Below are positions 3,603 through 33,224 of a stretch of DNA of 64,000 bases, piece after piece (the first letter of the stretch is position 1; the number at the start of each line of letters is the position of its first letter). The translations under genes and the position numbers were made by a program. The stretch comes from Rhodanobacter soli (GTDB lineage Bacteria; Pseudomonadota; Gammaproteobacteria; Xanthomonadales; Rhodanobacteraceae): NCBI RefSeq assembly GCF_040548735.1, contig NZ_JBEPSD010000003.1:186001-250000 (forward strand), read 5' to 3'. The notes beneath the pieces were generated by a model, which had not been told where the DNA came from, did not search any database, and saw only the letters and a program-made list of their open reading frames with translations.

Positions 3603-3642
3603 TCCGCCGACAGTTCCCCGTGCGACCTTTCGGCGACACGCC

Positions 3643-16300: not shown

Positions 16301-16318
16301 GCGTCCCGGTGCGCTTGC

Positions 16319-16347
16319 TTGTGCCGCTGCCGCCCAGCCCGTAAAAT
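16319..16347 (+). promoter_or_regulatory. Probable tRNA-Lys promoter
   Basis: A -35-like TTGTGC (16319-16324) and a -10 TAAAAT (16342-16347) are separated by exactly 17 bases, and the tRNA begins 25 bases after the -10. It matches the sigma-70 pattern reasonably and nothing else in the 70-base gap does. Confidence 0.6.
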
Positions 16348-16371
16348 TGTCTGCTTGAGTTTTGCAATGAT

Positions 16372-16447
16372 GGGTCGTTAGCTCAGTTGGTAGAGCAGTA
16401 GACTTTTAATCTATTGGTCCCGGGTTCGAGTCCCGGACGACCCACCA
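16372..16447 (+). tRNA. tRNA-Lys (anticodon TTT), CCA encoded
   Basis: Seven-base acceptor stem GGGTCGT/ACGACCC, D arm GCTCAGTTGGTAGAGC, anticodon loop CTTTTAA with anticodon TTT, T arm CCGGGTTCGAGTCCCGG, and an encoded CCA at 16445-16447. Its 3' end is the integration site of the following element; the CGGACGA...ACCA end is partly repeated at 24032-24042. Confidence 0.97.
16434..16447 (+). other. Left attachment site (attL) at the tRNA 3' end
   Basis: The last 14 bases of the tRNA, CGGACGACCCACCA, are taken as the left crossover region because a P4-type integrase gene starts 178 bases further on and a degenerate copy, CGGACGAACCA, occurs at 24032-24042. Such integrases commonly use tRNA 3' ends. 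The exact crossover bases cannot be fixed from this sequence. Confidence 0.55.
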
Positions 16448-16471
16448 ATTCGCCATCCAATGGCATCCAAT

Positions 16472-16514
16472 AAAGGCCGGTAAGCCCCGCAGTATCAAGG
16501 CTTCCGGCCTTTTC
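16472..16514 (+). terminator. Terminator-like hairpin after tRNA-Lys
   Basis: AAAGGCCGG (16472-16480) pairs with CCGGCCTTT (16504-16512), extended by AAGCC/GGCTT inside, and a short T run follows. It would end the tRNA transcript inside the integrated element, replacing the original terminator now found beyond the right end. Confidence 0.7.
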
Positions 16515-16531
16515 CTTGTCCGGTACTGTCC

Positions 16532-16588
16532 GGGGGCATCCATTGCAATCTGCCCCCAGCTGGGGGCATTCTCGGGGGCATGGGGCAT
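16532..16588. repeat. GGGGGCAT repeats at the left end (putative integrase arm sites)
   Basis: GGGGGCAT occurs at 16532-16539, 16562-16569 and 16574-16581, with a GGGGCAT directly after at 16582 and an inverted GCCCCC at 16552-16557. The same octamer occurs twice near the right end (23950-23957, 23962-23969). Paired clusters next to both ends suggest arm-type binding sites of the integrase. Confidence 0.55.
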
Positions 16589-16624
16589 TCCTTCCTGGTG
16601 CGATGTCCCCAACGAGGATGCCGC

Positions 16625-17836
16625 ATGCTCACCGATACCGCGATCCGCAAGGCCAAGCCGGCCAACAAGCCCGCACGCATGTTCGACGGAGGCGGCTTGT
16701 ATCTGGAAGTTTCGCCAGCTGGCGGCAAGCTGTGGCGGCTCAAGTACCGATTCAACGGCAAAGAACGGCGGCTGGCGCTGGGCATCTATCCCGACACCGG
16801 CCTGGCTGATGCCCGCGACAAGCGCGACGCGGCACGCAAGCTGCTGGCGGCCGGCGTCGATCCGGGCGAGCAACGCAAGGCCGAGAAAGCGGCAGGCGAG
16901 GAACGCGCAGCCAATAGCTTCGAGGTCATCGCGCGCGAATGGGCCGCACGGCAAACATGGGTCGAGAGCTACCGGGTGAAGGTCGAGGCGCGGCTAGGCA
17001 GTGACGTCTATCCGTACATCGGCAGGCGGCCGGTGGCGGAGTTGAGCGCCCCGGAGCTGTTGCAGGTGGCGCGCAGGATCGAGGAACGCGGCGCGGTGGA
17101 ATCGGCGCATCGCGCGTTGCAGGTCTGCGGGCAGATCATGCGCTATGCCATCGCCACCGGGCGTGCCGAGCGCAACCCCGTGGCTGATCTGCGCGGTGCG
17201 TTGGCGTCGCCGGCTGGGAGCCACCACGCGGCGATTACCGATCCCGTCGCACTGGGCGGCCTGCTGCGATCCATCGAGGGCTACTCGGGCGACGTGGTGA
17301 CGCGCGCAGCCTTGAAGCTGTCCGCGCTGCTGTTCGTGCGCCCCGGCGAGCTTCGGCATGCGGAGTGGGCGGAAATCGACATGGACGCGGGCGAGTGGAA
17401 CATCCCCGCCGGCAAGATGAAGATGCGCCAGCCGCATCTAGTGCCGCTGTGCAATCAGGCCGTGGCGATCCTGCGCGAGTTGCATCCGCTGACCGGACGC
17501 GGGCAGTACGTCTTTCCGGGTGGCCGTTCGCCGCGTCGCCCGCTGAGCAACAACGCGGTGAATGCCGCCTTGCGTCGCATGGGCTTCGACAAGGAAACCA
17601 TGACCGCCCACGGCTTCCGCGCCACGGCACGCACGATGCTGGACGAAGTGCTGGGCTACCGTGCGGATTTCATCGAACACCAGTTGGCGCATGCCGTGAA
17701 AGACCCGAACGGCCGCGCGTACAACCGCACCGCACACCTTGCCGAACGCCGCAAGATGATGGCGGGATGGGCGGACTATCTGGACACGCTGCGCGCTGGC
17801 GGCGAGGTATTGCCGTTCAAGCGCAAGGCAAGCTGA
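16625..17836 (+). CDS. P4-type tyrosine integrase
   Basis: 403-residue site-specific recombinase. The N-terminal DUF4102 arm-binding domain (LTDTAIRKAKP, GGLYLEV, LGIYPDTGLADAR) is followed by a core-binding domain and a catalytic domain with Arg239 (VRPGELR), His329-x-x-Arg332 (HGFR), His356 and the nucleophile Tyr366 (AYNRT), so it looks intact. It reads away from tRNA-Lys, into which it presumably integrates this element. The start at 16625 begins the conserved domain; an upstream ATG at 16580 lies inside the arm-site repeats. Confidence 0.95.
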   Translation: MLTDTAIRKAKPANKPARMFDGGGLYLEVSPAGGKLWRLKYRFNGKERRLALGIYPDTGLADARDKRDAARKLLAAGVDPGEQRKAEKAAGEERAANSFEVIAREWAARQTWVESYRVKVEARLGSDVYPYIGRRPVAELSAPELLQVARRIEERGAVESAHRALQVCGQIMRYAIATGRAERNPVADLRGALASPAGSHHAAITDPVALGGLLRSIEGYSGDVVTRAALKLSALLFVRPGELRHAEWAEIDMDAGEWNIPAGKMKMRQPHLVPLCNQAVAILRELHPLTGRGQYVFPGGRSPRRPLSNNAVNAALRRMGFDKETMTAHGFRATARTMLDEVLGYRADFIEHQLAHAVKDPNGRAYNRTAHLAERRKMMAGWADYLDTLRAGGEVLPFKRKAS

Positions 17837-17927
17837 TCGTTTCACGCCGCGCCTAGGCTGATCCCCGAACACCGGGCACCTTCCCCGGCTGGCGCGGCAC
17901 CTTTTGAAGGGCGCAGAGGTGCGCGCT

Positions 17928-18551
17928 GTGGCAAAGGAATGGAAGAACAAGCTCGCCGGCATCCAAGCGCCGCGCGATCCCCGCGCGGATGGGTTAGGGC
18001 TTGGTGACTACTTCGCGCGCCACGCGGGCTTTGTCGTCCCCGACGGATTTCCAGCGGGTACGATCGCGCCTGCAAGCGTTCCTGACAGTGCAAGCCGTGA
18101 ACAGTTACGCAAGAAGCTTGCGAGTGAATTGAGGAACTGGGATCACGAAGAGCTTGCGCAAGTGGCAGCCGCGTTACTTGAGGGCTCCTTCCTGTGGCGT
18201 GGCGTGTTTGCCAAGTATGCCAAGGACAAAGAGATTGAATTGTGCGAGGTCAAGGCCGAGATGTACCAACGGCTACATGAAGCTCACACGGAAGCGCTAG
18301 ACATCCTTGCTGATCCCGTTACGCGTGCGTATTTGAACGCTGGTGCGAAGCTCGCCAGAGACCCGAAACAAGCAGCAAAGGCGGAAGCGTTCAAGCTGTG
18401 GAGCGACTGGCAAGCCGGCAAGACTTTGCACAAATCCGGCGCGGCCTTTGCCCGCTTTGTCTGCGACAAATATCCGGTGTTGGAAAGCCCGACGACCGTC
18501 GAGAGATGGGCGAGGAAGTGGGCCGTCGAGAAGTCCAAAAATAGGCACTGA
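17928..18551 (+). CDS. Hypothetical protein of the integrated element
   Basis: 207-residue hydrophilic protein that I do not recognise. It has a charged, mostly helical look with an aromatic segment (GSFLWRGVFAKYAKDKEIELC) and no signal peptide or membrane segment. Base composition is lower in GC than its neighbours, as expected for transferred DNA. The start is uncertain: GTG at 17928 follows AGAGG; GTG at 17919 and TTG at 17904 are also possible. It lies between the integrase and the AlpA-led operon. Confidence 0.6.
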   Translation: MAKEWKNKLAGIQAPRDPRADGLGLGDYFARHAGFVVPDGFPAGTIAPASVPDSASREQLRKKLASELRNWDHEELAQVAAALLEGSFLWRGVFAKYAKDKEIELCEVKAEMYQRLHEAHTEALDILADPVTRAYLNAGAKLARDPKQAAKAEAFKLWSDWQAGKTLHKSGAAFARFVCDKYPVLESPTTVERWARKWAVEKSKNRH

Positions 18552-18566
18552 GCTAGCGCAGTGCGC

Positions 18567-18598
18567 ATCGTGCTAGCTGCGCAAGGATCGTGCTAGCT
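18567..18598. promoter_or_regulatory. Direct repeats upstream of the AlpA-like gene
   Basis: ATCGTGCTAGCT occurs at 18567-18578 and again at 18587-18598, exactly 20 bases apart (about two helix turns), and an inverted AGCTAGC lies just before at 18551-18557. Spacing on one face of the helix suggests a binding site for a regulator of the operon that follows, possibly the AlpA-like protein itself. Confidence 0.45.
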
Positions 18599-18636
18599 CG
18601 TGGGAGGACATGCCCATTTCAGGCACATACCGTAAA

Positions 18637-18664
18637 GACCGTCCTAAATGAGCAAAGGTCGGTC
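18637..18664. promoter_or_regulatory. Inverted repeat over the ribosome-binding site of the AlpA-like gene
   Basis: GACCGTCC (18637-18644) is nearly the inverse of GGTCGGTC (18657-18664), seven of eight pairs, and ends two bases before the ATG at 18667. The AAAGG ribosome-binding site lies within the second arm's edge. It could be an operator for self-regulation or an RNA hairpin hiding the start. Confidence 0.4.
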
Positions 18665-18666
18665 AT

Positions 18667-18894
18667 ATGTCATCCGAAGTCGTCGCATCCCGCGCTTACC
18701 TGCGCGTTTCTGAAATCGCCAACAATCGGCGTACCCGCACGCCGGGAATCATCCCCGTCTCTGCCGCGACGTGGTGGAGCTGGGTCAAGGCCAACAAGGC
18801 ACCACAACCCATCCGCCTGAGTGCTGGCGTTACCGTCTGGCGTGCCGCCGACGTGCTGGCCTTCGCCGAGTCACTGGCCGGGGAGGCAGCATGA
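18667..18894 (+). CDS. AlpA-like regulator/excisionase
   Basis: 75-residue protein with a MerR-like helix-turn-helix: AYLRVSEIANN..., then PVSAATWWSWVKANKAPQPIRL and GVTVWRAADVLAFAES. This is the AlpA pattern of P4-like phages and genomic islands, where the protein activates or assists excision. It heads a run of overlapping genes, and its stop overlaps the next start (ATGA). Confidence 0.85.
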   Translation: MSSEVVASRAYLRVSEIANNRRTRTPGIIPVSAATWWSWVKANKAPQPIRLSAGVTVWRAADVLAFAESLAGEAA

Positions 18895-19070
18895 CCCGCC
18901 CCAAAAGCAGCACCGCCCCGAAGCGGGAACTTCGAGGCGGCAAGGTGTTGCGCACTGTCTGGCGTCGAGTGTATCGCTTCGCCGAGCGCCTAGACGCCTG
19001 CCACGAGTGCGCCATCGTCGTGTTCATCGTCGCCTTGTGCCTGCTGTTCGTGCTGGGGGTGCACGCATGA
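18891..19070 (+). CDS. Small single-pass membrane protein
   Basis: 59-residue protein with a basic N-terminus and one hydrophobic segment near the C-terminus (CAIVVFIVALCLLFVLGVHA). It overlaps the AlpA-like gene by four bases at its start and the next gene by four bases at its end, so it is translated as part of the operon. I do not recognise a family. Confidence 0.65.
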   Translation: MTRPKSSTAPKRELRGGKVLRTVWRRVYRFAERLDACHECAIVVFIVALCLLFVLGVHA

Positions 19071-19504
19071 ACGCCGCCCTATTGCTTTCGCGGCTGGATA
19101 ACGTGCGGCGCGCTGGCCCCGGCTGGCGGGCGAACTGTCCGAACCCGGCACACTCGAAGGCGCGCGGCTCGCTGTCTATCACCGAAGCGGACGACGGCCG
19201 CATCCTGCTGGCGTGTTTCGCCTGCCACGACACGCCGACCATTCTCGGAGCGCTGGGTTTGGAGCTGGCCGACCTGTTCCCCGAACGGATCAAGGACGCC
19301 AGTCCCGAAGGCCGGCGCACGACGCGTGAGGCGTTCAAGCGGTCGAGCTGGGCGGCGGCATTGCCGGTGCTGGCGCGAGAGGCATCCGTGGTGCTGCTGG
19401 CGATGCGTGACGTGCTGGCCGGCAAGGTGCTGCCAGCGGGTGACGTGGAGCGGCTGGCGCTGGCTGAGGAACGCATTGCACGGGCGCGCGAGGTGTTGGC
19501 ATGA
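19067..19504 (+). CDS. CHC2-type zinc-finger (primase-like) protein
   Basis: 145-residue protein with a primase-type zinc finger: CPNPAHSKARGSLSI followed by LLACFACHD, a C-x4-H...C-x2-C arrangement as in DnaG/P4 primases. No primase catalytic part follows; the C-terminal half is helical. The next gene is a DUF927 ATPase, and together they look like the split replication module of a satellite or island. Overlaps of four bases at both ends. Confidence 0.8.
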   Translation: MNAALLLSRLDNVRRAGPGWRANCPNPAHSKARGSLSITEADDGRILLACFACHDTPTILGALGLELADLFPERIKDASPEGRRTTREAFKRSSWAAALPVLAREASVVLLAMRDVLAGKVLPAGDVERLALAEERIARAREVLA

Positions 19505-21456
19505 CGGCCGAGACCTACATTCGCGACCTTGAGGCGAAGGAAGCCCGGGAGCTGGCGCTGTTGCAACGGATGCCGCGCCAGCCGCTGGCCACGGCGATCC
19601 GGCAGACGGTGCGTGCTGCTACCCCTGTGCAATCGACTGGGGACAGTGGGGACAGTGGGGACGCCGCATCACACAAGGGCTTGAGCCGTCCCCACGTTGA
19701 ATCGGGAAGTGGGGACGCTGGGGACAGGCCCGTACCGCGTCCGCGCTTCGAGTTGCTGGAAGCGCCAGCCGATGGCCGGCAAGTGGGCGTCTACTGGCTG
19801 GACGTGGCACGCAACAAGGCCGGCGAAGTAACCGGGCAGGCCGCGCCGACGTGGATATGCTCACCGCTGCAAGTGGCCGCCATGACGCGCGACGCGCAAG
19901 GCAGCGCGTGGGGCCGCATGCTGGTGTTCTCCGACCGCGACGGCTTGCTGCACCGCTGGACGATGCCCATGCGCATGCTGGCGGGCAACGGCGAAGAGCT
20001 GCGCGGCGAACTGCTGGCCGAAGGACTGACCATCACATCATCCGGGCGTGACCGCGCGCGCCTGGTGAACTACATCGGGCAGGCTCGCCCCGACGTCACG
20101 GCGCGATGCGTGACGCGCACCGGCTGGCATGGCGATACGTTCGTGTTGCCCCGCGAAACCTTCGGCGACACCGACGCCGAACCCGTCCACTATCAGGCGG
20201 CGACACTGGACGGCGTGACGCTGGGGAAGGGCGGGACGCTGGCCGGATGGATCGGCGAGGTATCGACCCGATGCGCGGGCAATGCGCGGCTGGTGCTGGC
20301 CGTGTCGCTGGGCTTCGCTGGCCCGTGCCTGGATTTGTTGCGCATGGACGGCGGCGGCTTCCACCTGCGCGGCGGCAGTTCCACCGGCAAGACCACGGCC
20401 CTACGGGTGGCCGCTTCCCTGTTTGGTGCACCGGACTACGTGCGGACGTGGAGGCACACGGATAACGGGCTGGAAGGCGTGGCCGGCATGCACTCGGGCT
20501 TGTTGCTGGTGCTGGACGAAATCGGCGAGCTGGCCCCGAAGATCGCGGGGCAAACCGCGTACATGCTGGCGAACGGACAAGGCAAAGGCCGCGCAGCGCG
20601 TGACGGCTCGCCGCGTGCGCTGACTACATGGCGTCTGCTGTTCCTGTCGTCCGGTGAGGTGGCGCTGTCCGATCTGGTGACGCAAGCGGGCGGCAAGGTT
20701 TGCGCGGGGCAGGAAGTGCGCGTTATCGACCTGCCCGCCGATGCCGGCGCGGGGCATGGCCTGTTCGACGTGCTGCCCTATGACATGACGGCTGGCGCCT
20801 TTGCCGACTCGCTGGCGGCTGCCAGTGCCAAGCATCACGGCCACGCACTGCCGGCCTTCCTGAATGCCCTGGTTGCTGATCCTGCGAAGGCCCGCGATGC
20901 ACTGGCGAAGCTGCGCGACACCATTGCCGCCGAGCTGGCCAGCGACCACGCGGACGGGCAAGTGCGGCGCGTCGCCCAGCGGTTCGCGCTGGTAGCGGCG
21001 GCGGGCGAACTGGCGACGGCTTACCGATTGACTGGCTGGCAGGTGGACGAAGCGAAGCGCGCAGCGGCCGCATGCTTCCGCGCATGGATGGAAGGGCGCG
21101 GCACGGCGGGCGCGAGTGAGCCGGCGGCGATGCTGGATCAAGTGCGCGCGTTTCTGTCGGCGCATGGAGAGTCGCGGTTTACGGCATGGCATGGCGAACC
21201 CGGCGACCGGGTGACGATCAATCGCGCGGGCTTTCGCAAGGATGGCCCCGACGGCCCTGCCTACTACGTGGAGAGCGAGGCGTTCAAGCGCGAGGTGTGC
21301 GCGGGTTTCGATGCGGGCGCAGTGGCAAAGGTGCTGGCTGGCGCGGGTGCGCTACAGGTGGGCGGCGATGGGCGGCTGACCTGCAAACCCCGGTTGCCGG
21401 ATGGGCGATCCCCGCGCGTCTACGTCATCACGCCGGCTTTGTGGGGTGAAGCATGA
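19501..21456 (+). CDS. DUF927 helicase-like ATPase
   Basis: 651-residue protein typical of the DUF927 replication ATPases of integrative elements. After a low-complexity N-terminus (GDSGDSGD) comes the DUF927 region with Walker A GGSSTGKTT (Lys297) and Walker B LLLVLDEIGEL (Asp339/Glu340). It probably unwinds DNA at the element's origin. The N-terminal repeat region is encoded by a GGGGAC-repeat element (19638-19728) whose relative lies just past the gene. Start and stop both overlap neighbouring genes by four bases. Confidence 0.9.
   Translation: MTAETYIRDLEAKEARELALLQRMPRQPLATAIRQTVRAATPVQSTGDSGDSGDAASHKGLSRPHVESGSGDAGDRPVPRPRFELLEAPADGRQVGVYWLDVARNKAGEVTGQAAPTWICSPLQVAAMTRDAQGSAWGRMLVFSDRDGLLHRWTMPMRMLAGNGEELRGELLAEGLTITSSGRDRARLVNYIGQARPDVTARCVTRTGWHGDTFVLPRETFGDTDAEPVHYQAATLDGVTLGKGGTLAGWIGEVSTRCAGNARLVLAVSLGFAGPCLDLLRMDGGGFHLRGGSSTGKTTALRVAASLFGAPDYVRTWRHTDNGLEGVAGMHSGLLLVLDEIGELAPKIAGQTAYMLANGQGKGRAARDGSPRALTTWRLLFLSSGEVALSDLVTQAGGKVCAGQEVRVIDLPADAGAGHGLFDVLPYDMTAGAFADSLAAASAKHHGHALPAFLNALVADPAKARDALAKLRDTIAAELASDHADGQVRRVAQRFALVAAAGELATAYRLTGWQVDEAKRAAAACFRAWMEGRGTAGASEPAAMLDQVRAFLSAHGESRFTAWHGEPGDRVTINRAGFRKDGPDGPAYYVESEAFKREVCAGFDAGAVAKVLAGAGALQVGGDGRLTCKPRLPDGRSPRVYVITPALWGEA
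19638..19728 (+). repeat. GGGGAC-repeat element, copy 1
   Basis: About 91 bases with GGGGACAGT twice in tandem, a third GGGGAC, then CACAAGGGCTTGAG, CGTCCCCAC in inverse, and two further GGGGAC units. The reverse complement of 21487-21575 has the same order of parts: three GGGGAC units, CACAAGGGTTTG, CGTCCCCAC, then further GGGGAC units. It lies inside the coding region of the DUF927 protein and encodes its GDSGDSGD tail. Confidence 0.75.
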
Positions 21457-21992
21457 GCGTCGCCGACATTCTGCGCGAGTGGGGCATTGTCCCCACTGTC
21501 CCCACGTTGTCCCCAAAGGTGGGGACGTCGCAAACCCTTGTGGCAAGCCATGTCCCCACTGTCCCCATTGTCCCCGCCGAAAAGCACAAGGCTAGAGCGC
21601 AACCGCTGATATCGCGCTCGGCAGCGCGCGGCGACCGTGACCGGATGCGCGCCGCCCTGCTGGCGTTGGCGGACGATTTGGAACTGGATCGCGCCATCAT
21701 CCACCGACTTACCACGGCAGACCTGGCCGACTGCGCGGGCTTCCCTGCCGATGCCCTGCGCGCTTACCTGGTGGCGCTGGATGACACTGCGACACGGCAG
21801 GCGGGGAAGGTGGCTGTGGGCGACACGGCGGCGATCTATTGCGCGCGCTGTGGCCCGGTATTCATTCATCCTGACATTGCTGCCGTGCTGCCGGTAGTGA
21901 ACGGGTGGCCGCGTGCGCTGGGGTGCCCCTGGTGTTTCGTGCGCAAGGCCGGCGGCACCATTCCGCGACCCGAAGAAGCCGACCATGATTGA
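21453..21992 (+). CDS. Zinc-finger protein of the integrated element
   Basis: 179-residue protein. Its first 45 residues are a low-complexity Val/Pro/Thr stretch encoded by the second GGGGAC-repeat element. The middle is helical and the C-terminal part has two CxxC pairs (YCARCG and CPWCF) that should bind zinc. No precise family assigned. The ATG overlaps the DUF927 stop, and the end overlaps the SSB-like gene by eight bases, so it belongs to the same operon. Confidence 0.7.
   Translation: MSVADILREWGIVPTVPTLSPKVGTSQTLVASHVPTVPIVPAEKHKARAQPLISRSAARGDRDRMRAALLALADDLELDRAIIHRLTTADLADCAGFPADALRAYLVALDDTATRQAGKVAVGDTAAIYCARCGPVFIHPDIAAVLPVVNGWPRALGCPWCFVRKAGGTIPRPEEADHD
21487..21575 (-). repeat. 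GGGGAC-repeat element, copy 2 (inverted)
   Basis: Contains six GTCCCC units, one inverse GGGGACG, and AACCCTTGTGGCAAG. Read on the reverse strand it aligns part by part with 19638-19728. The two copies are in opposite orientation and lie inside the start of the DUF927 gene and just past its end. Such repeated short units are seen in iteron-type origins, but a role is not shown. Confidence 0.75.
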
Positions 21993-22045
21993 TGCCCTGC
22001 TGAGCGGCAGACTTGCCGCCGACCCGAAGGAAGGCGCCGCCAGCA
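21985..22045 (+). pseudogene. SSB-like protein gene, 5' fragment
   Basis: The reading that overlaps the end of the previous gene begins MIDALLSGRLAADPKEG, which looks like the first strand of the SSB-like OB-fold proteins carried by integrative elements. After about residue 20 the sequence changes to phage tail-protein text. The matching C-terminal part appears 1.6 kb downstream (about 23661-23838). The gene therefore looks split by an insertion. The junction position is approximate. Confidence 0.6.
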
Positions 22046-22502
22046 ACGCCACCGACGCCGCCGTGCCGGGCGTGGTGCTCACCCGCGCCGCCGGCGACCA
22101 ACATCGCTACCACGCGGCGGATCGGCAAGCCTACAGTGGCGTGCGCGCGCAGTACGACGACCAGGCCAAGGCCACCACCGAAACCGTGCTCGTGGGCACC
22201 GACGACGGCCACGGCCTCAAGACCCTGCGCACCACGTACAGCAACCGCGCCAACGCCCTGCGCGCAGCGAATACCAGCGCCTGCAGCGCGGCACCGTGAG
22301 CTTCGACCTCACCCTCGCCCGCGGCCGCGCGGATCTGTACCCCGGCCGCCCGGTCACGCTACGCGGCTGGAAACCGGAGATCGACGCCACCCCGTGGACC
22401 ACCGTGCGCGCCGAGCACAGCCTGAGCGACAGCGGCTTCACGACGCGGATCAGCCTTGAGTGGCGCAGCCCGAACAGCGCGCCGGAGAGCGACGCAAGCT
22501 GA
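22046..22502 (+). pseudogene. Phage late control protein D (P2 gpD-type), 3' fragment with frameshift
   Basis: The translated text GDQHRYHAADRQAYSGVRAQ and KTLRTTYSNRANALRA, continued in another frame by EYQRLQRGTVSFDLTLARGR and RPVTLRGWKPEIDATPW, reads like the C-terminal third of P2-type gpD (tail/baseplate hub). One base is missing near 22268, where codon GCN is left with two bases. The 5' two thirds of the gene are absent. It has no function now; it marks the inserted DNA as coming from a P2-like prophage. Confidence 0.8.
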
Positions 22503-22516
22503 CAGGCCGTCTGGCC

Positions 22517-23089
22517 TCAGCCCATGATGCGGGTAATGAACACCTTGTAGTTTGGATCGAAGAGCGACGGAACATGCAGCTCAGGCATGCGAAGGTTCTG
22601 AGCAATCTGCAAGTCGGTGATCTTCTTGGCATCACGAAGTCTATGAAACTCTTGGCGCTGAGCTTCTGGGCACATGATGCCCATAGCACGCCAGAACGCG
22701 ATGACTTCCGACTCACCAGCGAGTGAGCGGTTAAGTAGGGGGCCGATCATTTCGGTAATGAGCGATTCGAACTCTTCGGCTGTGCCCAGCTTCTGCAACT
22801 CGTCATCGAAGAGATGCATCATCTCCTTGATGCAGACGAATCGTTCCCAACAGTAGTTCAGGGAACGCGAGACCACGATCGTTGGCGCAGCGGCGGTCAA
22901 ATTCGGGAGGCCGGCGATACCCTCACCGGGGCGCACGAAGAAACCCAAGAGCTTTTCGGTGCTTATGCCGGTCTTGTAGACCTTGAGATTATCGACACCG
23001 CAAAGCTCTTTGAGCTTGGGATACAGCCGCTTGCGACTGACAGGAATTGGCAACTGTTGACAGTAGGCGTGAAGCGCGGCGTAACTCAT
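22517..23089 (-). CDS. ImmA/IrrE-like protein with KExxH motif (cargo gene 2)
   Basis: 190-residue protein, second gene of a two-gene operon. Around residue 85 it has RFVCIKEMMHLFDDE, which has the shape of the ImmA/IrrE metallopeptidase helix but with KExxH where the family usually has HExxH. A further acidic helix follows (EEFESLITEM). If zinc is bound it would need other ligands, so it may be a regulator or degenerate protease. The start is 20 bases after the end of the 58-aa gene. Base composition is markedly lower in GC than the host, indicating transfer. The family assignment is by motif only. Confidence 0.6.
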   Translation of the reverse strand: MSYAALHAYCQQLPIPVSRKRLYPKLKELCGVDNLKVYKTGISTEKLLGFFVRPGEGIAGLPNLTAAAPTIVVSRSLNYCWERFVCIKEMMHLFDDELQKLGTAEEFESLITEMIGPLLNRSLAGESEVIAFWRAMGIMCPEAQRQEFHRLRDAKKITDLQIAQNLRMPELHVPSLFDPNYKVFITRIMG

Positions 23090-23109
23090 CCTTGAGGAAA
23101 CTCCAACAA

Positions 23110-23286
23110 TTAAACGAGCGCGACTTCGTCGAAATCGCCACCGGAGATCTGCTCGATAGCATTGCTGATCTCGCCCGCAATCTCTTCCGGCGTCGAATCG
23201 CGACTGAAACCGGGGTACATCTTGAAATTGGTCGCACCAAGGCTGTCGAAGAGCAGCTCTTGGGCTTTCTTCATATTGGTGGCCAT
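23110..23286 (-). CDS. 58-residue protein (cargo gene 1)
   Basis: Small acidic protein starting MATNMKKAQELLFDSLG and containing GFSRDSTPEEIAGEIS; no known family recognised. The ATG at 23286 is preceded by AGGAGAG at good distance. It is the first gene of a two-gene operon with the KExxH protein and has its own promoter (23339-23367). Its small size and partner position fit an antitoxin, adaptor or regulator, but nothing in the sequence decides between these. Confidence 0.6.
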   Translation of the reverse strand: MATNMKKAQELLFDSLGATNFKMYPGFSRDSTPEEIAGEISNAIEQISGGDFDEVALV

Positions 23287-23315
23287 GACATCTCTCCTAA
23301 GGTACCTACACAAAC

Positions 23316-23333
23316 GCCGCCCATGTGGGCGGC
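23316..23333. promoter_or_regulatory. Palindrome at the transcription start of the two-gene cargo operon
   Basis: GCCGCCCA-TG-TGGGCGGC is a perfect 8-bp inverted repeat with a two-base centre. It lies from about +1 of the predicted promoter to 30 bases before the first gene. The position suits an operator for self-regulation, or a hairpin in the 5' leader. No T run follows, so it is unlikely to be a terminator. Confidence 0.55.
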
Positions 23334-23338
23334 TAATC

Positions 23339-23367
23339 AGGGTAGCAGAGATATGGCAGCTTTACAA
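23339..23367 (-). promoter_or_regulatory. Predicted sigma-70 promoter of the cargo operon
   Basis: On the reverse strand TTGTAA (23362-23367) and TACCCT (23339-23344) are separated by exactly 17 bases, and the first gene starts about 45 bases further on. Confidence 0.55.
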
Positions 23368-23553
23368 CTTCACAATACCCAACTGACCAAACCACCCCCT
23401 GACGCACATACAGATTGACACGCAGTTATTTTGGTGGCAATAGGAAAAACGTCGCAGTTTGCTTGCCATACATTAAAACAGTTGGCAAGGCGCATAGTCT
23501 CCACTCGCCGTGAGACGGAGCTGCACAATTTTGTGACGTCGTCGTTAAAACGG

Positions 23554-23638
23554 CTGCCCGGAACGTCGGTTCCCCCTGACTCCATGCCGGCTGCTGCCAG
23601 GCAAATCGGTCGGTTCGTGGCCAGGACGTTCCGGGCAG
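23554..23638. repeat. 85-bp region bounded by a perfect 14-bp inverted repeat
   Basis: CTGCCCGGAACGTC (23554-23567) is the exact inverse of GACGTTCCGGGCAG (23625-23638), with 57 bases between. It lies just before the point where SSB-like coding text resumes, so it may mark the end of the inserted DNA. No flanking target duplication was seen. Confidence 0.7.
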
Positions 23639-23660
23639 GCTCACGATCACATATTCCGCG

Positions 23661-23838
23661 TGGTGCCGCTGTAGGTGCGCGCCGCGTGGCGGTGACGCTG
23701 GCCGGCGAGCTGACCCCGAAGGTCTGGACGGACAAGGACGGCAACGCCCGGCCATCGGCGGACATGAAGGCGCACGCCGTGCTGACCCCGTACCACGTCC
23801 AGCGCAGACGACAGATGATGGCCGGCGAAGGGAGCTAG
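23661..23838 (+). pseudogene. SSB-like protein gene, 3' fragment
   Basis: Reading ARRVAVTLAGELTPKVW followed by TDKDGNARPSADMKAHAVL and TPYHVQRRRQMM looks like the C-terminal OB-fold strands of island-borne SSB-like proteins. Its own frame upstream has no sensible start. It completes the 5' fragment at 21985 once the 1.6 kb between is removed. The family link is from memory of similar proteins and should be searched. Confidence 0.6.
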
Positions 23839-23949
23839 GCGGGTGCCCATTTCCGCCAGCATCGCGCACGCGCGCGAGGCATGCCGGTTTCTGCGGCCCC
23901 AAAGGCGAGCCTGAGAACAGGCCGAATCAGGCAGTCACCGCGATGTGCT

Positions 23950-23969
23950 GGGGGCATCTTTGGGGGCAT
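23950..23969. repeat. GGGGGCAT repeats at the right end (putative integrase arm sites)
   Basis: GGGGGCAT at 23950-23957 and 23962-23969, 12 bases apart, in the same spacing as the pair at 16562 and 16574; a GGGGCAT follows at 24001. Together with the left cluster they bracket the integrated element. Confidence 0.55.
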
Positions 23970-24031
23970 CTTGCCGTCCGCCATTTCTGAAAACGTTGCG
24001 GGGCATGGCTTGCGGGCGATCATTCAATAGA

Positions 24032-24042
24032 CGGACGAACCA
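24032..24042 (+). other. Right attachment site (attR), degenerate
   Basis: CGGACGAACCA equals the tRNA-Lys 3' end CGGACGACCCACCA with CCC missing. It is followed at once by GTTTTCAG and a strong terminator, which looks like the original trailer of the tRNA gene. The loss of three bases may impair excision. Basis is a short match plus context. Confidence 0.45.
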
Positions 24043-24048
24043 GTTTTC

Positions 24049-24076
24049 AGAGCGTCCTGACGGGCGCTCTTTTTTT
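24049..24076 (+). terminator. Rho-independent terminator just outside the element
   Basis: AGAGCGTCC pairs with GGGCGCTCT (one G-T pair) around the loop TGAC, followed by seven T. It points rightward, opposite to the histidine kinase gene, and no gene in the element reads into it. It is best explained as the original terminator of tRNA-Lys, displaced 7.6 kb by the insertion. Confidence 0.8.
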
Positions 24077-24087
24077 GTTCCTGGCCT

Positions 24088-25992
24088 TCAATCGTCGTCG
24101 CGGGTGATGGCCCACACCGACAACATTGCACTGCGCAGCTGTTGCGGTGAAACCGGCTTGTACAGCAGCGGAATCTTCGCGGCGATGATCTCGCGCAGGC
24201 GCTCGACGCGGGTTTCGCCAGTGACCAGCAGGCGCGCGAACGGCGTGTTGCCATCGCGCAGGTAGTGCTGGTCGAGTGCGGCGAAGACGTCGAGGCCGCG
24301 TTCGCCGCCGCGCAGGTGCAGGTCGGAGATCACGATGTCGGGTGGCCCGGGCCAGTTCTCGATGGCCTCCAGCGCCTGCAGCCGATCCTCGGCCACTTCC
24401 ACGTCGCAGCCCCAACTGCGCAGGAGGAAACGGATGCCGGAAAGGATGGCCGGGTCGTCATCCACGACCAGCACGCGTTTGCCGGCCAGGTCGGCGAATA
24501 CTTCGTCGTCGGGTACGGGCGGTTCCGGGCGTGCGGTGGCGATCGGCAGCTGGAAGTGGAACACGCTGCCGCGGCCGAGCCGGGATTTCACCCGGACCTC
24601 GGTATCGAGCAGCTCCGCCAGCCGCTGCACGGTGGCCAGACCCAGGCCCAGACCCGAGTGCGAATCATCATGAAGCCCTGCGTCGGGACGGTCGTCGATG
24701 CGATAGAACTCGTCGAACACGCTGGGCAGGTGCTGCGGCGCGATGCCGCTGCCGGTATCCCATACTTCGATGCGTATCCGTCCGTTGCCGGCGCGCCGGG
24801 TGCCGATCAGCGCACCGCCGTGGCGGGTGAAGCGCAGGGCATTGCTGACCAGGTTGTTGAGGATGCGGGTCAGCATGGTGCGGTCGCTGCGCACCCACAG
24901 TCGGGTAGGGTGGATCGTCAGCTGCAGCCCGCGCTGCTCCGCGACCATGTCGAAGTTGCGGCTGACCTCGGCGAGGACAGCATCGAGCGGGAACTCGCTG
25001 ATCTCGACCTGCACCGCGCCGGTTTCCAGCCGCGACAGGTCGAGCAGTTCACTGAACAGGTGGTCGAGCGACTGCACGCATTCCTGGATGTGGGCGATCC
25101 GGTCCAGCCGCTGCGGGTCGTGTTCGTCCACGGCCAGTGCGGAGGAGAACAGGGTCAGCGCATACAGCGGCTGGCGCAGGTCGTGCGAGGCAGCCGCCAG
25201 GAAACGCGACCTGGCCAGGCTGGCCGCTTCCAGCGCTGCATTCTTGCGGGCCAGTTCCTGCGTGGCTTGTTCGATCTGCTGCTCCATGCCGCGCTGCACG
25301 TCGTGCAGCGCCGCCGCCGCATGGTTGAAACCCTGCTGCAGCTCACCGATCTCGGTGCGGTCGGTCACCGCCACCGCCACCTGGCGATAGCCCTGGCCAA
25401 GCTGGCGCACGGCACCGGCCAGGTGGCGCAACGGCGCACTGATCCAGCTCGCCGCCTGCCAGCCGATCACGCTGGCGACGAGCACGCTCAACAGCAGGAC
25501 GGCCAGGGCGTAGCGCAGGCTCGCGTGCTGGGCGGCGATCGCGTCGCGCAGGCTTACGTCCAGCAGCACCGAACCCAGCACAGTATTTCCGGACTGGTCG
25601 CGATCGAACACGTCGCGCACCACGGTCAGGGTCTCCTGTGGGTCACGGCTGTCGTCGGGCTCGTGATGATCGGCCAGGATCTGGCCGGCGGTGGTGCGGA
25701 TCTGCACTCGCGTCACGTGCGGCAGGTCGCCGATCGAGTCGGCGATCCGCACCAGCTCGCGCAGCTGCATAGCGCGCAGTGGCTGCAGGCTGATCGAGGC
25801 CGCCTGCGTGGCGATCGTCTCGGCATTGCTGCGCGCCATCTGGCGTAGATTGAACAGTTGGCGCTGCGTCAGGAAGGTCACCAGCAGTGCGGCGGTGATC
25901 AGGGCAGGTACCAGCGCCACAAAGGCCAGCCGCTGCATCAGCGACGTGCGCTGCCACAGGCGTGCGAGCCAGGAGTTGGTCGCCATGTCCAT
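24088..25992 (-). CDS. Hybrid sensor histidine kinase with receiver domain
   Basis: 634-residue membrane protein. Membrane segments near residues 21-42 and 161-183 enclose a periplasmic sensor; HAMP follows, then a coiled coil, the HisKA site AASHDLRQPL (His270), an ATPase domain (NNLVSNALRF, DTGSGI, GLGLGLATV) and a C-terminal receiver domain (VLVVDDDPA, phospho-acceptor in VISDLHL). The DLRQP form of the H-box is found in Xanthomonadales kinases of this build. The signal is unknown, and no partner regulator gene is adjacent. ATG at 25992 or 25986. Confidence 0.92.
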   Translation of the reverse strand: MDMATNSWLARLWQRTSLMQRLAFVALVPALITAALLVTFLTQRQLFNLRQMARSNAETIATQAASISLQPLRAMQLRELVRIADSIGDLPHVTRVQIRTTAGQILADHHEPDDSRDPQETLTVVRDVFDRDQSGNTVLGSVLLDVSLRDAIAAQHASLRYALAVLLLSVLVASVIGWQAASWISAPLRHLAGAVRQLGQGYRQVAVAVTDRTEIGELQQGFNHAAAALHDVQRGMEQQIEQATQELARKNAALEAASLARSRFLAAASHDLRQPLYALTLFSSALAVDEHDPQRLDRIAHIQECVQSLDHLFSELLDLSRLETGAVQVEISEFPLDAVLAEVSRNFDMVAEQRGLQLTIHPTRLWVRSDRTMLTRILNNLVSNALRFTRHGGALIGTRRAGNGRIRIEVWDTGSGIAPQHLPSVFDEFYRIDDRPDAGLHDDSHSGLGLGLATVQRLAELLDTEVRVKSRLGRGSVFHFQLPIATARPEPPVPDDEVFADLAGKRVLVVDDDPAILSGIRFLLRSWGCDVEVAEDRLQALEAIENWPGPPDIVISDLHLRGGERGLDVFAALDQHYLRDGNTPFARLLVTGETRVERLREIIAAKIPLLYKPVSPQQLRSAMLSVWAITRDDD

Positions 25993-26331
25993 CCGCCCCT
26001 ACCTCCCCCTGAATTACCCCACGTCAGCGCGCCGGGCCAGTCCGACCCTGGCCCGCGCATCCGGATGATCTGGACCTGACGCAACACTAGCGCGAAATGG
26101 GCAGATTGACAGCTGCACCGGGACGATCCGTCCGCCGACCCTTGGGAAGCAGACACTGGCGACGACACCTCGCGGCGCATGGTCGGCGGGGCCTGTATTC
26201 GTCGCGATTTCGAATAGGGTGGCGCCGTTGCGCCGGAGGCGGGGAGCAACGGCCATCACGAGCGATCCGCCTCGCCCGAGGCCGTGGCGCAGGCGCGACT
26301 GGATGGTCGCGCCTGCTGCCGAGCCCCGCGG
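25993..26331. other. Intergenic region between the kinase gene and pilY1
   Basis: About 340 bases. The only structure seen is the strong hairpin at 26289-26316, just after the end of pilY1. The rest must contain the kinase promoter on the reverse strand, but no convincing one was found. Confidence 0.5.
26289..26316 (-). terminator. Hairpin after pilY1
   Basis: GCAGGCGCGAC pairs perfectly with GTCGCGCCTGC around a six-base loop, about 16 bases after the pilY1 stop. No T run follows, so it may act as an intrinsic stop only weakly, or protect the 3' end of the pilus operon message. Confidence 0.6.
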
Positions 26332-29300
26332 CTATTTCAGGCCTTCGGTGAACCAGTAGGTGCGCTTGCGCTTGCCGGTGTTGGGCGGAGTGACTTTGTT
26401 CGCGCCCAGCGCCGAGGTGTTGTTGCCGCCTACCGCGGATCCGGTCTGGTTGCCGCCACCGATCAGGACTGGGGTGTACACGCCGCTGCCGGGAGTGATT
26501 TCGACCAGGCCGAATACCGGCGAGGGTGGCAGGCCGCCACCGTCGAAGGTGATGTAACCGTTGCTGTTCAGGCCCGCACCGGTCAGGAAGTTGATCGCGT
26601 ATCCGCGTGCGATACCCAGGTTCGGATAGCACATGTCGGGGTTCTTTTTGGGATCAAACGGTGTGTTGGTGCCGAAGTAGGTATAGCCCGCGACCGTCAA
26701 GGGCGCATTCACGGCCTTTTCGCCATCACCGGGTTGGCCCAGGGTGACATAGAAGCCCGACGTGGTGCTGGTGGAGGAATACGGCGCTGTCGTTCCTGCG
26801 GCGGCACCGGTTTCGTCTGTCAGCACAGACTCGGTAATCGGGGTCCAGCCGGTGGCCACGCTGGTGCCGGTGTTGGTGTCCTTCAGCATGTAGAAACGGT
26901 TGATCACAGTGGACGACGCATTCGCCAGCAGCGGATGTTCACGATCGCCGCTGGCGGCCACGACCGCGTCGAAACTGGCGGTCGGGGTAACGTCAGGCGG
27001 ATAGAAGAACTTGCGGGCAGTGGTGCTGGTGCCGCCGCTGAGGCTGGCGATCTTGGTCACCGCCCACTTGGTTGGATCGGTGTCATTGATGTCGGCACGC
27101 CAGATATTGCCACCCAGATCGCCGGTATAAATGCGATCGGTATAACCATCGCCGTCGCGATCCAGCAAGGTGATGTCGGCAGGGATCGCATAGGTCATGC
27201 CGGCGACCGTGCTGCAGGCGCCGGTTACGCCAGCGCAGGATGGCGCGGCCATCCACACCTTGGCACCGGTGAAAGCGTCCAGCACCACGATCGCGCGTCC
27301 CATGGTATCGGCAACGGCTACCGGGTCGGTGTCCTCGGCAGTGTCATAGCCACCGCCCATGATGACCACGGGAATGGGATTGCCGCTGACATCCTTGTAC
27401 CCCTTGACCAAGGCCAGCTTGGGCTGTGACCAGGTCTGGCCGAGTTCAGCAATGTCGGCGTTCGTCTTGCTCCACATGAATACCGGTGGCTTGGTCGGGT
27501 CGCTGACGTCGAACGCATAGATCAGGCGGCCGCCACGACGCGCCGTGAGGTAGAGGTAGGTCTTCGGGCTGGCGGCGACACGCAGGTCCTGGTACACCGT
27601 GGTGGTACCGTCGAAGAAGTAGTCCTTGCCGCTGCTGGTGGCGGGGTAATCCAGCGTGAGCCCCGGAGTGTTGTTGCGCAGACGCTGGAATTTGCCGAAA
27701 AAGTCCGGGGCGATGAACGACCATAGCTCGCCGCCGGGGCGCACCAGGCGTCCGGTGGTTGCCGGGGCTATTGGGGACATGGTGATGACGCCAGGGGCCG
27801 TCGCATCCTTGTTGCCGTTGACGGCACGGAAGACGCCGTCGTTGGAGCCGTAGAACACCACGATGCCGATGGAGCCGCCGTAGTTGACGACTGCCGGTCG
27901 CGAGTGCAGCACGTCGCCGTGGATGGACGGACGCACGGTGACCGGGGTACCGGGCCCTTTCTGGGTCTCGGCGCCGGTGCCGGTGTTGTTGTCCGTACCG
28001 CGGACCCAGTTGATCAGGGTCGTCGTATCGGCGGTCGTCGTAGTACCGAAAGCGGTGCTGCTGCCCAGTGTGGTGGCATCGAATGTGGGCAGCGTACCTG
28101 TGGTGGGACAGCCGCCCACCGTGGTGCAGGTATAGATCACGCGGCTCGTCTGATCAGTGAGATAGTCCGCGCGGGTCATCTCGGCGACGCCGCCCTTGTC
28201 GACGATCTGGCCGTCGGGGGCGTCGAATGCCCCACCGGCACCGGTCGCATTGTTGATCCAGAAGCCGTTGGGTGGCCAGTTGGTGACGAGGGTGCTGGTA
28301 TAGCCACTAGAGTTGATGGTGAACGGGCCGTTGCGCGTACCGGTGCCGGTACCGGTGCCGGTGGTAGTGGGGGTGCCAGTGGTGGTGCCGGTCTGCCGGT
28401 CCGCCGTCCAGAAGCTGAGCGCGTAGGGGGTAATGAAGCCGGTGCCGCTGTTGGTAATCGCCGGCTGGTTCAGCGAGTCTTCAAGCTGAACGTTGTTGTT
28501 CGAGTCGAAGCCAAGCTGGTACTGCTTGAGGTTGCCTGCCCAGCGCGGGGCGGCGGTGGCATCCGGGCGGAACATGCCGACATACACCTGGTTCAGCGAG
28601 GTGCCTTGGGCGTTCACGCTGACCGGCAGGCTCACCGAAGCGAACACGCTGTTGGTCGCTTGTACTTCAGTCAAGATCGTGGTTAGCGCTTTGATCAGGC
28701 CAGCCACATCACCCCCACTTACATAGAAATATTTACCGCCACCGTTCCCGGCCATGCTTTTGATCAGATTGATGTGATCGATGCATTTCTGATCCGCCTT
28801 TTTATTGCCCGATGGTTGATCGCAGCCATCTGAAACGGCGATGGTGTAGGTAATGATGTTCTGGTTGTTATGCGCGACCGAGGAAGAGATGCCGGAAAGA
28901 TCGGCGTTGTACATGAAGCGCGTCCACTCATCGCCCCAATTTTGCTGGTCGCCCGGGGGATTCAACGGGATGATCGGTGGGGTGGTTCCACCATTGGCTA
29001 TCGTCAGAGATGATTGTGCGAGCGAGGCACTGCTTGGTGTTTTGGGTGCATTGCTGCCGGTCACATTGGCCAGATAGATGATGAAGAGCTTTTGGCACTT
29101 GTCCGAGATTGACTTGCTGTACCTGGTTAGGGACAAGCCCGTGCTGGCGGTGTAGTAGGCCCAGGCTTCCTCCATGGATTCATCCAGGTTGTTGGAGTTG
29201 GTGTAAACAGCAGCCGTGCCGGGGCCGATTCCCGTCGCCCCTCCGGGGGTTCCCATGATCCAGTTCTGAAAAGTGGCTGCGCCAGCGGTGTCCAGCAGGG

Positions 29301-29703
29301 GAAGGGGGCCGGGTGCGGTTGGCGTGGGGCTCGGATAGTAGAACAGTCCGCCATTGGCCGGATTGAACATCATCAAGCCCATGTTGACCTGGCCGTTCAA
29401 CGGGCTGGTCGACGAGCCAATCGAGCCGATCAGGTTGTACAGCGCGCATTGTTCGAAGTCGTGCGCTTTGGGATTGGTGGCTATCCAGGAAGGACAGTTG
29501 CTGCCGGGGGCTATCGTGGTGGCCGAGTTGCCATTCGCGGCGTTGTCCATGACAAGCAGGACATTCGGTTTGCCGCCGCCGGTCGGCGTACCGGTATATA
29601 GGGAGATATCCTCGCCGCTGGCCATGCCCGGCAGCATCAGGGCTGCGGCGATCAGAACGAAGCTACGCAGCCTGTGGTTCGAGACGATGCGCGCGTGTGG
29701 CAT
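26332..29703 (-). CDS. pilY1: PilY1-like type IV pilus tip adhesin
   Basis: 1123-residue secreted protein, last gene of the minor-pilin operon. Signal peptide ends GMASGED. The N-terminal part resembles a von Willebrand A-like fold starting PNVLLVMDNAA, where the usual metal site is altered (DNAANG). The C-terminal part is the PilC-type beta-propeller with PVVIMGGGYDTAED, a calcium loop DRDGDGYTD and YTGDLGGNIWRADI. It sits at the pilus tip and promotes adhesion and pilus extension. A Thr/Gly repeat tract lies in the middle. Confidence 0.93.
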   Translation of the reverse strand: MPHARIVSNHRLRSFVLIAAALMLPGMASGEDISLYTGTPTGGGKPNVLLVMDNAANGNSATTIAPGSNCPSWIATNPKAHDFEQCALYNLIGSIGSSTSPLNGQVNMGLMMFNPANGGLFYYPSPTPTAPGPLPLLDTAGAATFQNWIMGTPGGATGIGPGTAAVYTNSNNLDESMEEAWAYYTASTGLSLTRYSKSISDKCQKLFIIYLANVTGSNAPKTPSSASLAQSSLTIANGGTTPPIIPLNPPGDQQNWGDEWTRFMYNADLSGISSSVAHNNQNIITYTIAVSDGCDQPSGNKKADQKCIDHINLIKSMAGNGGGKYFYVSGGDVAGLIKALTTILTEVQATNSVFASVSLPVSVNAQGTSLNQVYVGMFRPDATAAPRWAGNLKQYQLGFDSNNNVQLEDSLNQPAITNSGTGFITPYALSFWTADRQTGTTTGTPTTTGTGTGTGTRNGPFTINSSGYTSTLVTNWPPNGFWINNATGAGGAFDAPDGQIVDKGGVAEMTRADYLTDQTSRVIYTCTTVGGCPTTGTLPTFDATTLGSSTAFGTTTTADTTTLINWVRGTDNNTGTGAETQKGPGTPVTVRPSIHGDVLHSRPAVVNYGGSIGIVVFYGSNDGVFRAVNGNKDATAPGVITMSPIAPATTGRLVRPGGELWSFIAPDFFGKFQRLRNNTPGLTLDYPATSSGKDYFFDGTTTVYQDLRVAASPKTYLYLTARRGGRLIYAFDVSDPTKPPVFMWSKTNADIAELGQTWSQPKLALVKGYKDVSGNPIPVVIMGGGYDTAEDTDPVAVADTMGRAIVVLDAFTGAKVWMAAPSCAGVTGACSTVAGMTYAIPADITLLDRDGDGYTDRIYTGDLGGNIWRADINDTDPTKWAVTKIASLSGGTSTTARKFFYPPDVTPTASFDAVVAASGDREHPLLANASSTVINRFYMLKDTNTGTSVATGWTPITESVLTDETGAAAGTTAPYSSTSTTSGFYVTLGQPGDGEKAVNAPLTVAGYTYFGTNTPFDPKKNPDMCYPNLGIARGYAINFLTGAGLNSNGYITFDGGGLPPSPVFGLVEITPGSGVYTPVLIGGGNQTGSAVGGNNTSALGANKVTPPNTGKRKRTYWFTEGLK
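28339..28398 (-). repeat. Short in-frame repeat tract within pilY1
   Basis: Repeats of the 12-base unit ACCGGTGCCGGT and variants encode an alternating Thr/Gly run (TGTGTGTGT) between the adhesin and propeller parts. The unit is a multiple of three, so slippage would change linker length without breaking the frame. Confidence 0.6.
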
Positions 29704-29736
29704 GACGGTTCCTCCGCGGGAAGCGGATACAAGAGG

Positions 29737-30294
29737 TTAGTAAGGGCAATTCGTACCGATCGGCACCTGCACGGAGGCGCCTTGATGCACGGTGACCGCG
29801 ACGGCGGTGTTGTTCGGATCGGTGACGCTGGACTGGATGTCCCACTGCGTCGCGGAGCACATCGAGGGTGCCGCTGGCGGTGGGGATACCGAGGAGGCCG
29901 GACCGGGCAGGATGAGGTTGCCGTTGGGGTTGTTTGGCACCTTGCACACGTCGCCCACTGGCAGGGACGCGTTCGGGATCACCTTGCTGTCGAGGCAGGC
30001 GGGAGGCGCGACCTGGGCGGTGAAATCCGTGGTGCCGTCGCCGTTGACGTCGACCGCCACGGGGGTAATAGTGGTGATTGGCAGCCGGATGAACGGCTGA
30101 CTTATCACCTGCTCGATACCCTGCTGCGCCACGGTACCGGCTTCCAGCCGGTACTGCTGGTTGGCCGCCACCTTGGTGTTGATCATGCTCGAACTGACCA
30201 TGGAAATGGCGAACAGCATGAAGATGATCAGGAAGATCAGCGTCATCACCAAGGTGAAGCCGCGCTGCGAGGCGTGGGCTGAAGGAGTCTTCAT
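29737..30294 (-). CDS. pilX: PilX-like minor pilin
   Basis: 185-residue protein with a type IV N-terminus QRGFTLVMTLIFLIIFMLFAI, the PilX_N pattern without the usual glutamate at mature position 5. A globular domain with three cysteines follows (CLDSK, DVCKV, SMCSA) and a C-terminal CPY. It primes pilus assembly with PilV, PilW and FimT. ATG at 30294 directly follows a GTG at 30297 that overlaps the pilW stop. Confidence 0.88.
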   Translation of the reverse strand: MKTPSAHASQRGFTLVMTLIFLIIFMLFAISMVSSSMINTKVAANQQYRLEAGTVAQQGIEQVISQPFIRLPITTITPVAVDVNGDGTTDFTAQVAPPACLDSKVIPNASLPVGDVCKVPNNPNGNLILPGPASSVSPPPAAPSMCSATQWDIQSSVTDPNNTAVAVTVHQGASVQVPIGTNCPY

Positions 30295-30296
30295 CA

Positions 30297-31403: not shown

Positions 31404-31963
31404 GTCGTCGTGAGGTTGGCGATCTGGATTTCGACGCTGATCACGCGCCGCAGGTTGGTGCCGGGGATCGAGGCTTGCCCGCACGTCAGGACGGGCGTGG
31501 AGGTGGGCATCAGGCCCTGCCATGCGACACTGACGCGATAGATCTGGTTGGCGGCGTCGACTTGGGTGATACAGCCCACGGCCCCGATCATGGCGCCGAC
31601 CTTGGAGCTGCCGGAAACCTCGCTGGAACCGAGCAGGGCACTTTTCCATGCGGCGAGATCGGCGTTGGCGGTGGCAGCCTGGTTGACCGTGGGCGTCGGT
31701 GCGCCCGTGGCGCAGACAGGCAGGGGGGCGCTGGTCGTACTGACGCCGGTGGCGCCATTGGAGTAGCACGCGGCGACCTGCCGGTTGGCGTTGATGCGCG
31801 AGACCATATCCTGCACCAGGGTCAACGCCTGCACTCGCTGGTACGACTCCATCTCGCTGCGCGTGGATTTCGCCATCAGGGTGACGGTGCCGAGCAGGGC
31901 GATGGCTGCGATGACCAGCGACACCAGCGCCTCGATCAGCATCATGCCGGTCTGGTTTTTCAT
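31400..31963 (-). CDS. pilV: PilV-like minor pilin
   Basis: 187-residue minor pilin with the prepilin motif QTGMMLIEALVSLVIAAIALLG typical of PilV, followed by a domain with ALTLVQDMVSRINANR and paired cysteines. It overlaps fimT by four bases upstream and pilW downstream. Part of the priming complex for type IV pili. Confidence 0.9.
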   Translation of the reverse strand: MKNQTGMMLIEALVSLVIAAIALLGTVTLMAKSTRSEMESYQRVQALTLVQDMVSRINANRQVAACYSNGATGVSTTSAPLPVCATGAPTPTVNQAATANADLAAWKSALLGSSEVSGSSKVGAMIGAVGCITQVDAANQIYRVSVAWQGLMPTSTPVLTCGQASIPGTNLRRVISVEIQIANLTTT

Positions 31964-32433: not shown

Positions 32434-32436
32434 GGC

Positions 32437-32925: not shown

Positions 32926-33224
32926 ATTCCCCCCCTAGGGTTGCCGGTATTATTTCAGTTGACCGACAAGCTTATCCGTGTGCTGCGTCACGGGCTAACG
33001 CCATGCCTAGCGGGGAATATGAGATGTTCCCGAATCAAAGTCAATTTACGGATTTGGGGCGTTTGGCGGTGCCGTTGAACCTTGGGCAGGATCTTTCGAC
33101 CTGGCCTGGGAAGCGGTTCATCCGGGCCCCCGGCGCACCCCGTTCGAAACGGACAGAAGCCTGATCCGGTTGATGGCGTCCCTGGGGGCGCTGATCGCTC
33201 CAAGCCGAGGCCAGATCCCGGCGT
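32926..33224. other. Gap between the pilus operon and the TVP38-family gene
   Basis: About 300 bases without a gene. It carries the predicted pilus promoter at 33016-33044 and a leader of about 85 bases for pilE; 33045-33224 shows nothing recognisable. Confidence 0.5.
33016..33044 (-). promoter_or_regulatory. Promoter of the pilus operon
   Basis: Reverse strand -35 TTGACT (33039-33044) and -10 CATATT (33016-33021) with 17 bases between, about 90 bases before the pilE start. This is the best sigma-70 match in the 300-base gap. No sigma-54 pattern was seen. Confidence 0.65.

Follow-up and report, generated by a model that had tools for sequence, protein, structure and literature searches.

A 64,000-nucleotide stretch of the Rhodanobacter soli genome (contig NZ_JBEPSD010000003.1, positions 186,001 to 250,000; hereafter the window) carries a two-gene module in which a small open reading frame (ORF) precedes a gene for an ImmA-like protein with the motif KExxH where ImmA/IrrE proteases have HExxH, and the pair looks like a seemingly undescribed toxin-antitoxin-type module. 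The pair is kept beyond chance, as both genes occur at 27 other loci. We tentatively favor a mobile toxin-antitoxin-type module in which the small partner silences a KExxH effector, a reading whose chance we put somewhat short of even, because of the constant pairing, the position of the small gene first, the mobile surroundings and the restrained second gene in many members.

A preliminary description of this DNA had placed here two genes, the smaller for a 58-amino-acid protein, separated by 20 bases, and all of this was borne out (Table 1); the genes lie on the minus strand and have 58 and 190 codons, both ORFs are intact, and KEMMH, also as described, forms residues 88-92 of the larger protein. 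The relation of this protein to ImmA, likewise proposed there, is supported by its predicted fold and by weak profile matches. Specifically, the predicted structure has the peptidase M78/COG2856 fold, with CapP as its closest match and a C-terminal part that is helix-turn-helix-like. The Pfam cut-off for PF06114 was not reached, and the window protein was not listed at an expectation value (E) of 10 or below; 7 of 22 members were listed at E <= 1, the best at 3.5e-4. Neither window protein had a convincing match in Pfam, PHROGs, NCBIfam or PADLOC. We took as chance the library matches of the window proteins to Peptidase_M13 (E 0.32), phrog_20302 (E 0.27) and BrxC (E 0.036), as well as the PDB sequence matches of the large profile (myosin kinase/calmodulin fusion, 0.015; sigma factor, 0.056) and of the small profile (designed repeat proteins, 0.0017).

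The replacement of the first metal ligand is consistent across relatives, a test that had been set in advance. Among the 28 loci of our set (window included, repeats removed), the motif is K-E-x-x-H in every one (20 KELMH, 5 KEMMH, 1 KEAAH, 1 KELIH and 1 KEMLH), and none has HExxH, the form that the preliminary description had named as contrary evidence. At the acidic third-ligand position, 24 of the 28 have E and the other 4 have D, with the alignment of L004 and L048 uncertain there. The pattern scans behind some of these loci partly required KE, which is a bias; at the 8 loci that came from whole-protein or profile searches with no such requirement, the lysine was present in 8/8. We did not find the KExxH variant in the literature searched, and a term search for M78 and IrrE in a review of inactive metallopeptidases found neither.

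The distribution of the module is mobile and patchy, as for type II toxin-antitoxin modules: it was found with transposons and phages, and none was found in the plasmid records searched. The KExxH gene was present in 1 of 149 genomes (its own only); wider searches, each counting its own genome, gave 3 of 369 within the class and 2 of 398 within the phylum. A second class (385 genomes) gave 8 matches, of which 6 were true (one being L004, already known); the other 2, L049 and L050, are sigma-factor-like and were dropped. Pattern scans of viral contigs yielded further loci, and single-protein scans of them gave no matches. Fifteen loci come from named genomes, 13 of them Alphaproteobacteria by their titles (L016 is Methylorubrum suomiense DSM 14458), one Methylococcales and one given only as Proteobacteria. 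The relatives are 18-37% identical to the window KExxH protein, and their frames are open at 26/28 loci.

The small partner, whose retention the preliminary description had proposed to check, is constant: at 28/28 loci a small ORF of 55 to about 79 amino acids lies upstream on the same strand, lengths that depend on start codons hand-chosen for several of them, and most end 3-78 bases before the second gene. Thus, the layout of a type II toxin-antitoxin operon (two genes, the small one first, in constant pairing) is present throughout. The partners have in common a near-invariant LF pair, an [ND]-x-K-x segment and a predicted helix, and the lysine of the segment is invariant in 23/23 aligned rows and present in five later loci as well. 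The partners at L002, L003, L004 and L048 have weak similarity and were assigned by place, size and the [ND]-x-K-x segment. A search of the 385 genomes with the partner only had 4 partners among the matches listed, each adjoining a KExxH gene.

We found the genomic context to be scattered, which the preliminary description had named as contrary evidence, but at 16/28 loci the pair is accompanied by a transposase, by phage genes or by an integrative element, which fits a mobile module; the carrier was not recognised at 11/28 loci in the stretch examined. An IS1595-type insertion sequence (IS) transposase is near the pair at L016, L021, L023, L025, L028 and L048 (a 60-amino-acid fragment at the contig end in the last), and an IS1-type transposase at L018, L022 (C-terminal part only), L043 and L045, the families having been checked against Pfam for L021 and L018. 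As in IS1595- and IS1-type elements with passenger genes, ends and duplications enclose the pair, with terminal repeats and 8-base target duplications at L021 (18/20), L023 (20/20), L022 (19/20) and L016 (19/19) and a 9-base target duplication at L045; repeat pairs of at least 16/20 with a duplication were found 0 times in 40 shuffled sequences. A possible right IS1-type end only was seen at L018 and a left IS1595-type end only at L028. Matches of 14-15/20 at L004, L010 and L020 are at shuffle level and were not counted. Phage genes near the pair encode terminase (L004), capsid (L009, L010), portal (L010) and tape measure (L013); L013 and L008 share one contig, and L006 is a viral contig.

In a tree of 26 rows (without L015, which is cut, and L047, which has internal stops), IS1 and IS1595 carriage is scattered, with at least three changes each forced by supported branches; several long branches are not resolved. 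This scatter would fit capture on several occasions as well as an old origin on a transposon followed by losses. Further proteins accompany the pair at these loci. At all four IS1-type loci the pair is immediately preceded by a related small basic protein that ends in ...ARW (Table 1), a related protein is convergent to it at three IS1595-type loci (L016, 6453-6905; L021, 6619-7044; L023, 6343-6825), and the L021 transposon also bears a helix-turn-helix protein whose M78 domain has the canonical HELGH (2763-3710, minus strand).

The gap between the genes holds a hairpin in many relatives. Gaps reach at least 25 nucleotides at 15 of 23 loci (listed lengths are 3 nucleotides too short at most of the 23), and in 15/15 of these the best fold places a stem in the gap. 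Twelve of the 15 stems beat dinucleotide shuffles at a z score of -4 or lower, and six loci have a T-run after the stem, judged by eye. Over 27 loci, 13 second-gene starts but 0 small-gene starts reached a z of -4 or lower (in this test the second-gene start was set off a start codon at L043, L044 and L048). Most short-gap relatives have no hairpin, and that of L008 extends into the small gene. The stem sequences vary between loci; therefore, structure rather than sequence seems to be kept, and the hairpin should restrain production of the second protein compared with that of the first.

Upstream of the genes, the regulatory features fared less well. The preliminary description had given the module its own promoter, but a scan of 22400-23700 found no minus-strand sigma-70 site (one plus-strand site, 0.6 expected). 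The proposed palindromic operator, which would allow the autoregulation of a type II toxin-antitoxin module, did not gain support: the palindrome exists in the window but is unremarkable against shuffles (as a terminator-like site, 1 found versus 1.1 expected). Judged by eye, it was not seen in relatives, and no fold is shared across 27 loci in the 130 bases that precede the small gene. A perfect 14-base inverted repeat (CTGCCCGGAACGTC) also lies at 23554-23638, with 57 bases separating its arms.

In the toxin-antitoxin-type reading, the second gene encodes a protein with the predicted ImmA/IrrE/CapP zincin fold, in which every member seen has lysine for the first metal-binding histidine and retains the glutamate, the second histidine and the acidic third-ligand residue. 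We infer that this protein is no longer a zinc protease, that lysine occupies the place of the metal, and that what remains is a site for binding or for altered catalysis, through which the protein acts on a host target, with toxic effect. The small protein, in excess, would neutralize the effector by docking its [ND]-V-K-F-F segment, with the invariant lysine, in the cleft, and the hairpin of many long-gap relatives would hold down the second gene. The fullest version of this proposal is possible but rather doubtful: a distinct IrrE/CapP branch with lysine for the catalytic metal, in which a metal-free effector site would be plugged by the invariant-lysine strand of an obligate small protein, forming a toxin-antitoxin class that travels as cargo with several phages and with transposons from two unrelated families, with effector expression hairpin-limited in many members.

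Several results weigh against the toxin-antitoxin-type reading. Of the 6 true loci in the 385 genomes, 2 (G600/L004 and G1119/L048) have a small ORF that the partner profile failed to detect, the partner structure model, with two helices, is weak (predicted local distance difference test 74.5), and the partner has no DNA-binding (helix-turn-helix) family match in Pfam, PHROGs, NCBIfam or PADLOC. We found no homologue in 72,556 plasmid records, searched with the window protein (E <= 1) and with the L021 and L043 proteins (E <= 0.001), or in 50,697 phage records, searched with the window protein (E <= 1) and with the L010 and L020 proteins (E <= 0.001), an absence that counts because addiction modules are expected there. 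The inverted-repeat pair of L025 surrounds the transposase alone, leaving the pair outside. At the four IS1-type loci the pair always comes before the transposase in one order, which also suits a transposition accessory. Finally, the window itself lacks a gap hairpin, and the stems of L019, L022 and L024 are no stronger than those of shuffles.

Toxin-antitoxin, defense and lysogeny functions are all putative roles of the pair. A fairly unlikely alternative is that the pair regulates its own mobile element, tuning the expression of the carrier's genes and so controlling lysogeny or transposition as ImmA-ImmR does for ICEBs1. The helix-turn-helix-like part of the KExxH protein, the many loci in mobile elements and the fixed order of basic ORF, small gene, KExxH gene and transposase at the IS1-type loci would suit such a regulator. 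However, that part is also a feature of the IrrE fold, the partner matches no helix-turn-helix family, no obvious target gene is common to the carrier types, and the loci with no recognised carrier gene speak against it too. Distinctly unlikely is a phage-defense or superinfection-exclusion module that would sense incoming phage, with the KExxH protein acting on host or phage. Carriage by phages and the island is consistent with defense, as is the fold match to CapP, which belongs to a CBASS (cyclic oligonucleotide-based antiphage signaling system) operon according to the accessible part of PMC10904395, and L024 adjoins an MmeI-type restriction enzyme. Nevertheless, this is the only restriction neighbor in 28 loci, PADLOC gave nothing for the 190-amino-acid protein and only the chance BrxC match for the small one, and the search of sequenced phage records found no instance of the module.

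A still-active peptidase, with another metal geometry or lysine chemistry, that cleaves the partner or a host protein is improbable. Such activity would account for the invariance of E89 and H92 and the acid at position 128 in 28/28, which is beyond the need of a dead enzyme, but every member seen lacks a primary metal ligand. To our knowledge there is no lysine-ligated zincin, nor did we find one described in the literature searched. Finally, functionless decayed passenger genes are very improbable: L047 has two internal stops and L015 is cut short close to the end of its contig, but we reject decay, which is already contradicted by the constancy of K, E, H and the partner among relatives at such low identity and by the open frames.

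The surroundings agree with the preliminary description, which had put the module in an element next to a phage remnant: a tRNA-Lys gene, an integrase, an int-alpA RNA and a DUF927 protein are present, and a split PHROG 52 tail gene lies directly left of the module (Table 1). The module is low in G+C, again as described, with 51-57% over 22500-23749 and 63-72% just outside (500-base windows), although 57% is found as well at 18000-18749 and is not unique to it. The order of integrase, int-alpA RNA, primase-like ORF and DUF927 protein resembles phage-satellite-like elements. At least 10 of 45 genomes from the genus also contain the stretch at 24032-24083, a possible chromosomal junction. No 14-base repeat of 16301-16620 that could mark a right attachment site occurs within 20001-34000. 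A terminal-repeat scan gave no transposon ends around the module, and a search of the window for the two known terminal repeats, allowing up to 5 mismatches, found neither.

Table 1. Features of the module and its surroundings (window positions, except for the ...ARW protein, placed at the loci named)
Feature	Position	Strand	Remarks
Small partner gene, 58 amino acids	23110..23286	-	[ND]-x-K-x segment, K22 invariant; small ORF homologous or similarly placed at 28/28 loci
KExxH protein gene, 190 amino acids	22517..23089	-	Predicted fold ImmA/IrrE/CapP-like; K88, E89, H92, E128, putative former metal site
Intergenic gap, 20 bases	23090..23109	-	Hairpin no stronger than shuffles (z 1.1)
Inverted repeat, 8-base perfect arms, 2-base loop	23316..23333	.	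About 30 bases upstream of small gene; arms GCCGCCCA and TGGGCGGC, loop CA
tRNA-Lys	16372-16447		Near module
Tyrosine integrase	16580-17836		Near module
int-alpA RNA	17846-17911		Rfam RF02996, 58.1 bits; immediately downstream of integrase gene
Primase-like ORF	18821-19501		PHROG 6088, E 3.4e-6
DUF927 protein	19501-21456		Near module
Split phage tail-protein gene (PHROG 52)	22027..22493	+	Two frames, E 2.7e-15 and 9.8e-21; convergent with module, context only
...ARW protein	L018 5511-5750; L022 5375-5641; L043 923-1285; L045 891-1127		

The module resembles known systems in part. CapP of CapH-CapP is a CBASS-associated M78-type protease that cleaves the transcription factor CapH, as stated in the accessible part of PMC10904395; in contrast to that HExxH protease with its helix-turn-helix repressor, KExxH stands here with a small partner that has no helix-turn-helix family match. 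In IrrE/PprI-DdrO of Deinococcus the first ligand is His and here it is Lys, the 190 amino acids leave no room for the GAF-like domain, and the arginine that the accessible source text places seven residues before the motif in PprI (R85) is absent in 28/28. COG2856-Xre pairs (ImmA-ImmR) are, in the part of the source available, a predicted toxin-antitoxin class with HEXXH and an Xre partner (Makarova 2009, PMC2701414). Like them, the KExxH pair is a mobile two-gene module with a zincin-fold protein and is found in prophages, but it has neither HEXXH nor an Xre-type partner. The listings of our literature search, as far as they go, contained no report of a KExxH pair as an IS passenger. The active site of a dying enzyme usually erodes piecemeal; here, the same single ligand is replaced everywhere, the rest of the site is kept and the small ORF is constant, which is unlike such erosion. 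This pattern suggests that the IrrE/CapP fold has been put to a new use in the conflicts of mobile elements with their hosts.
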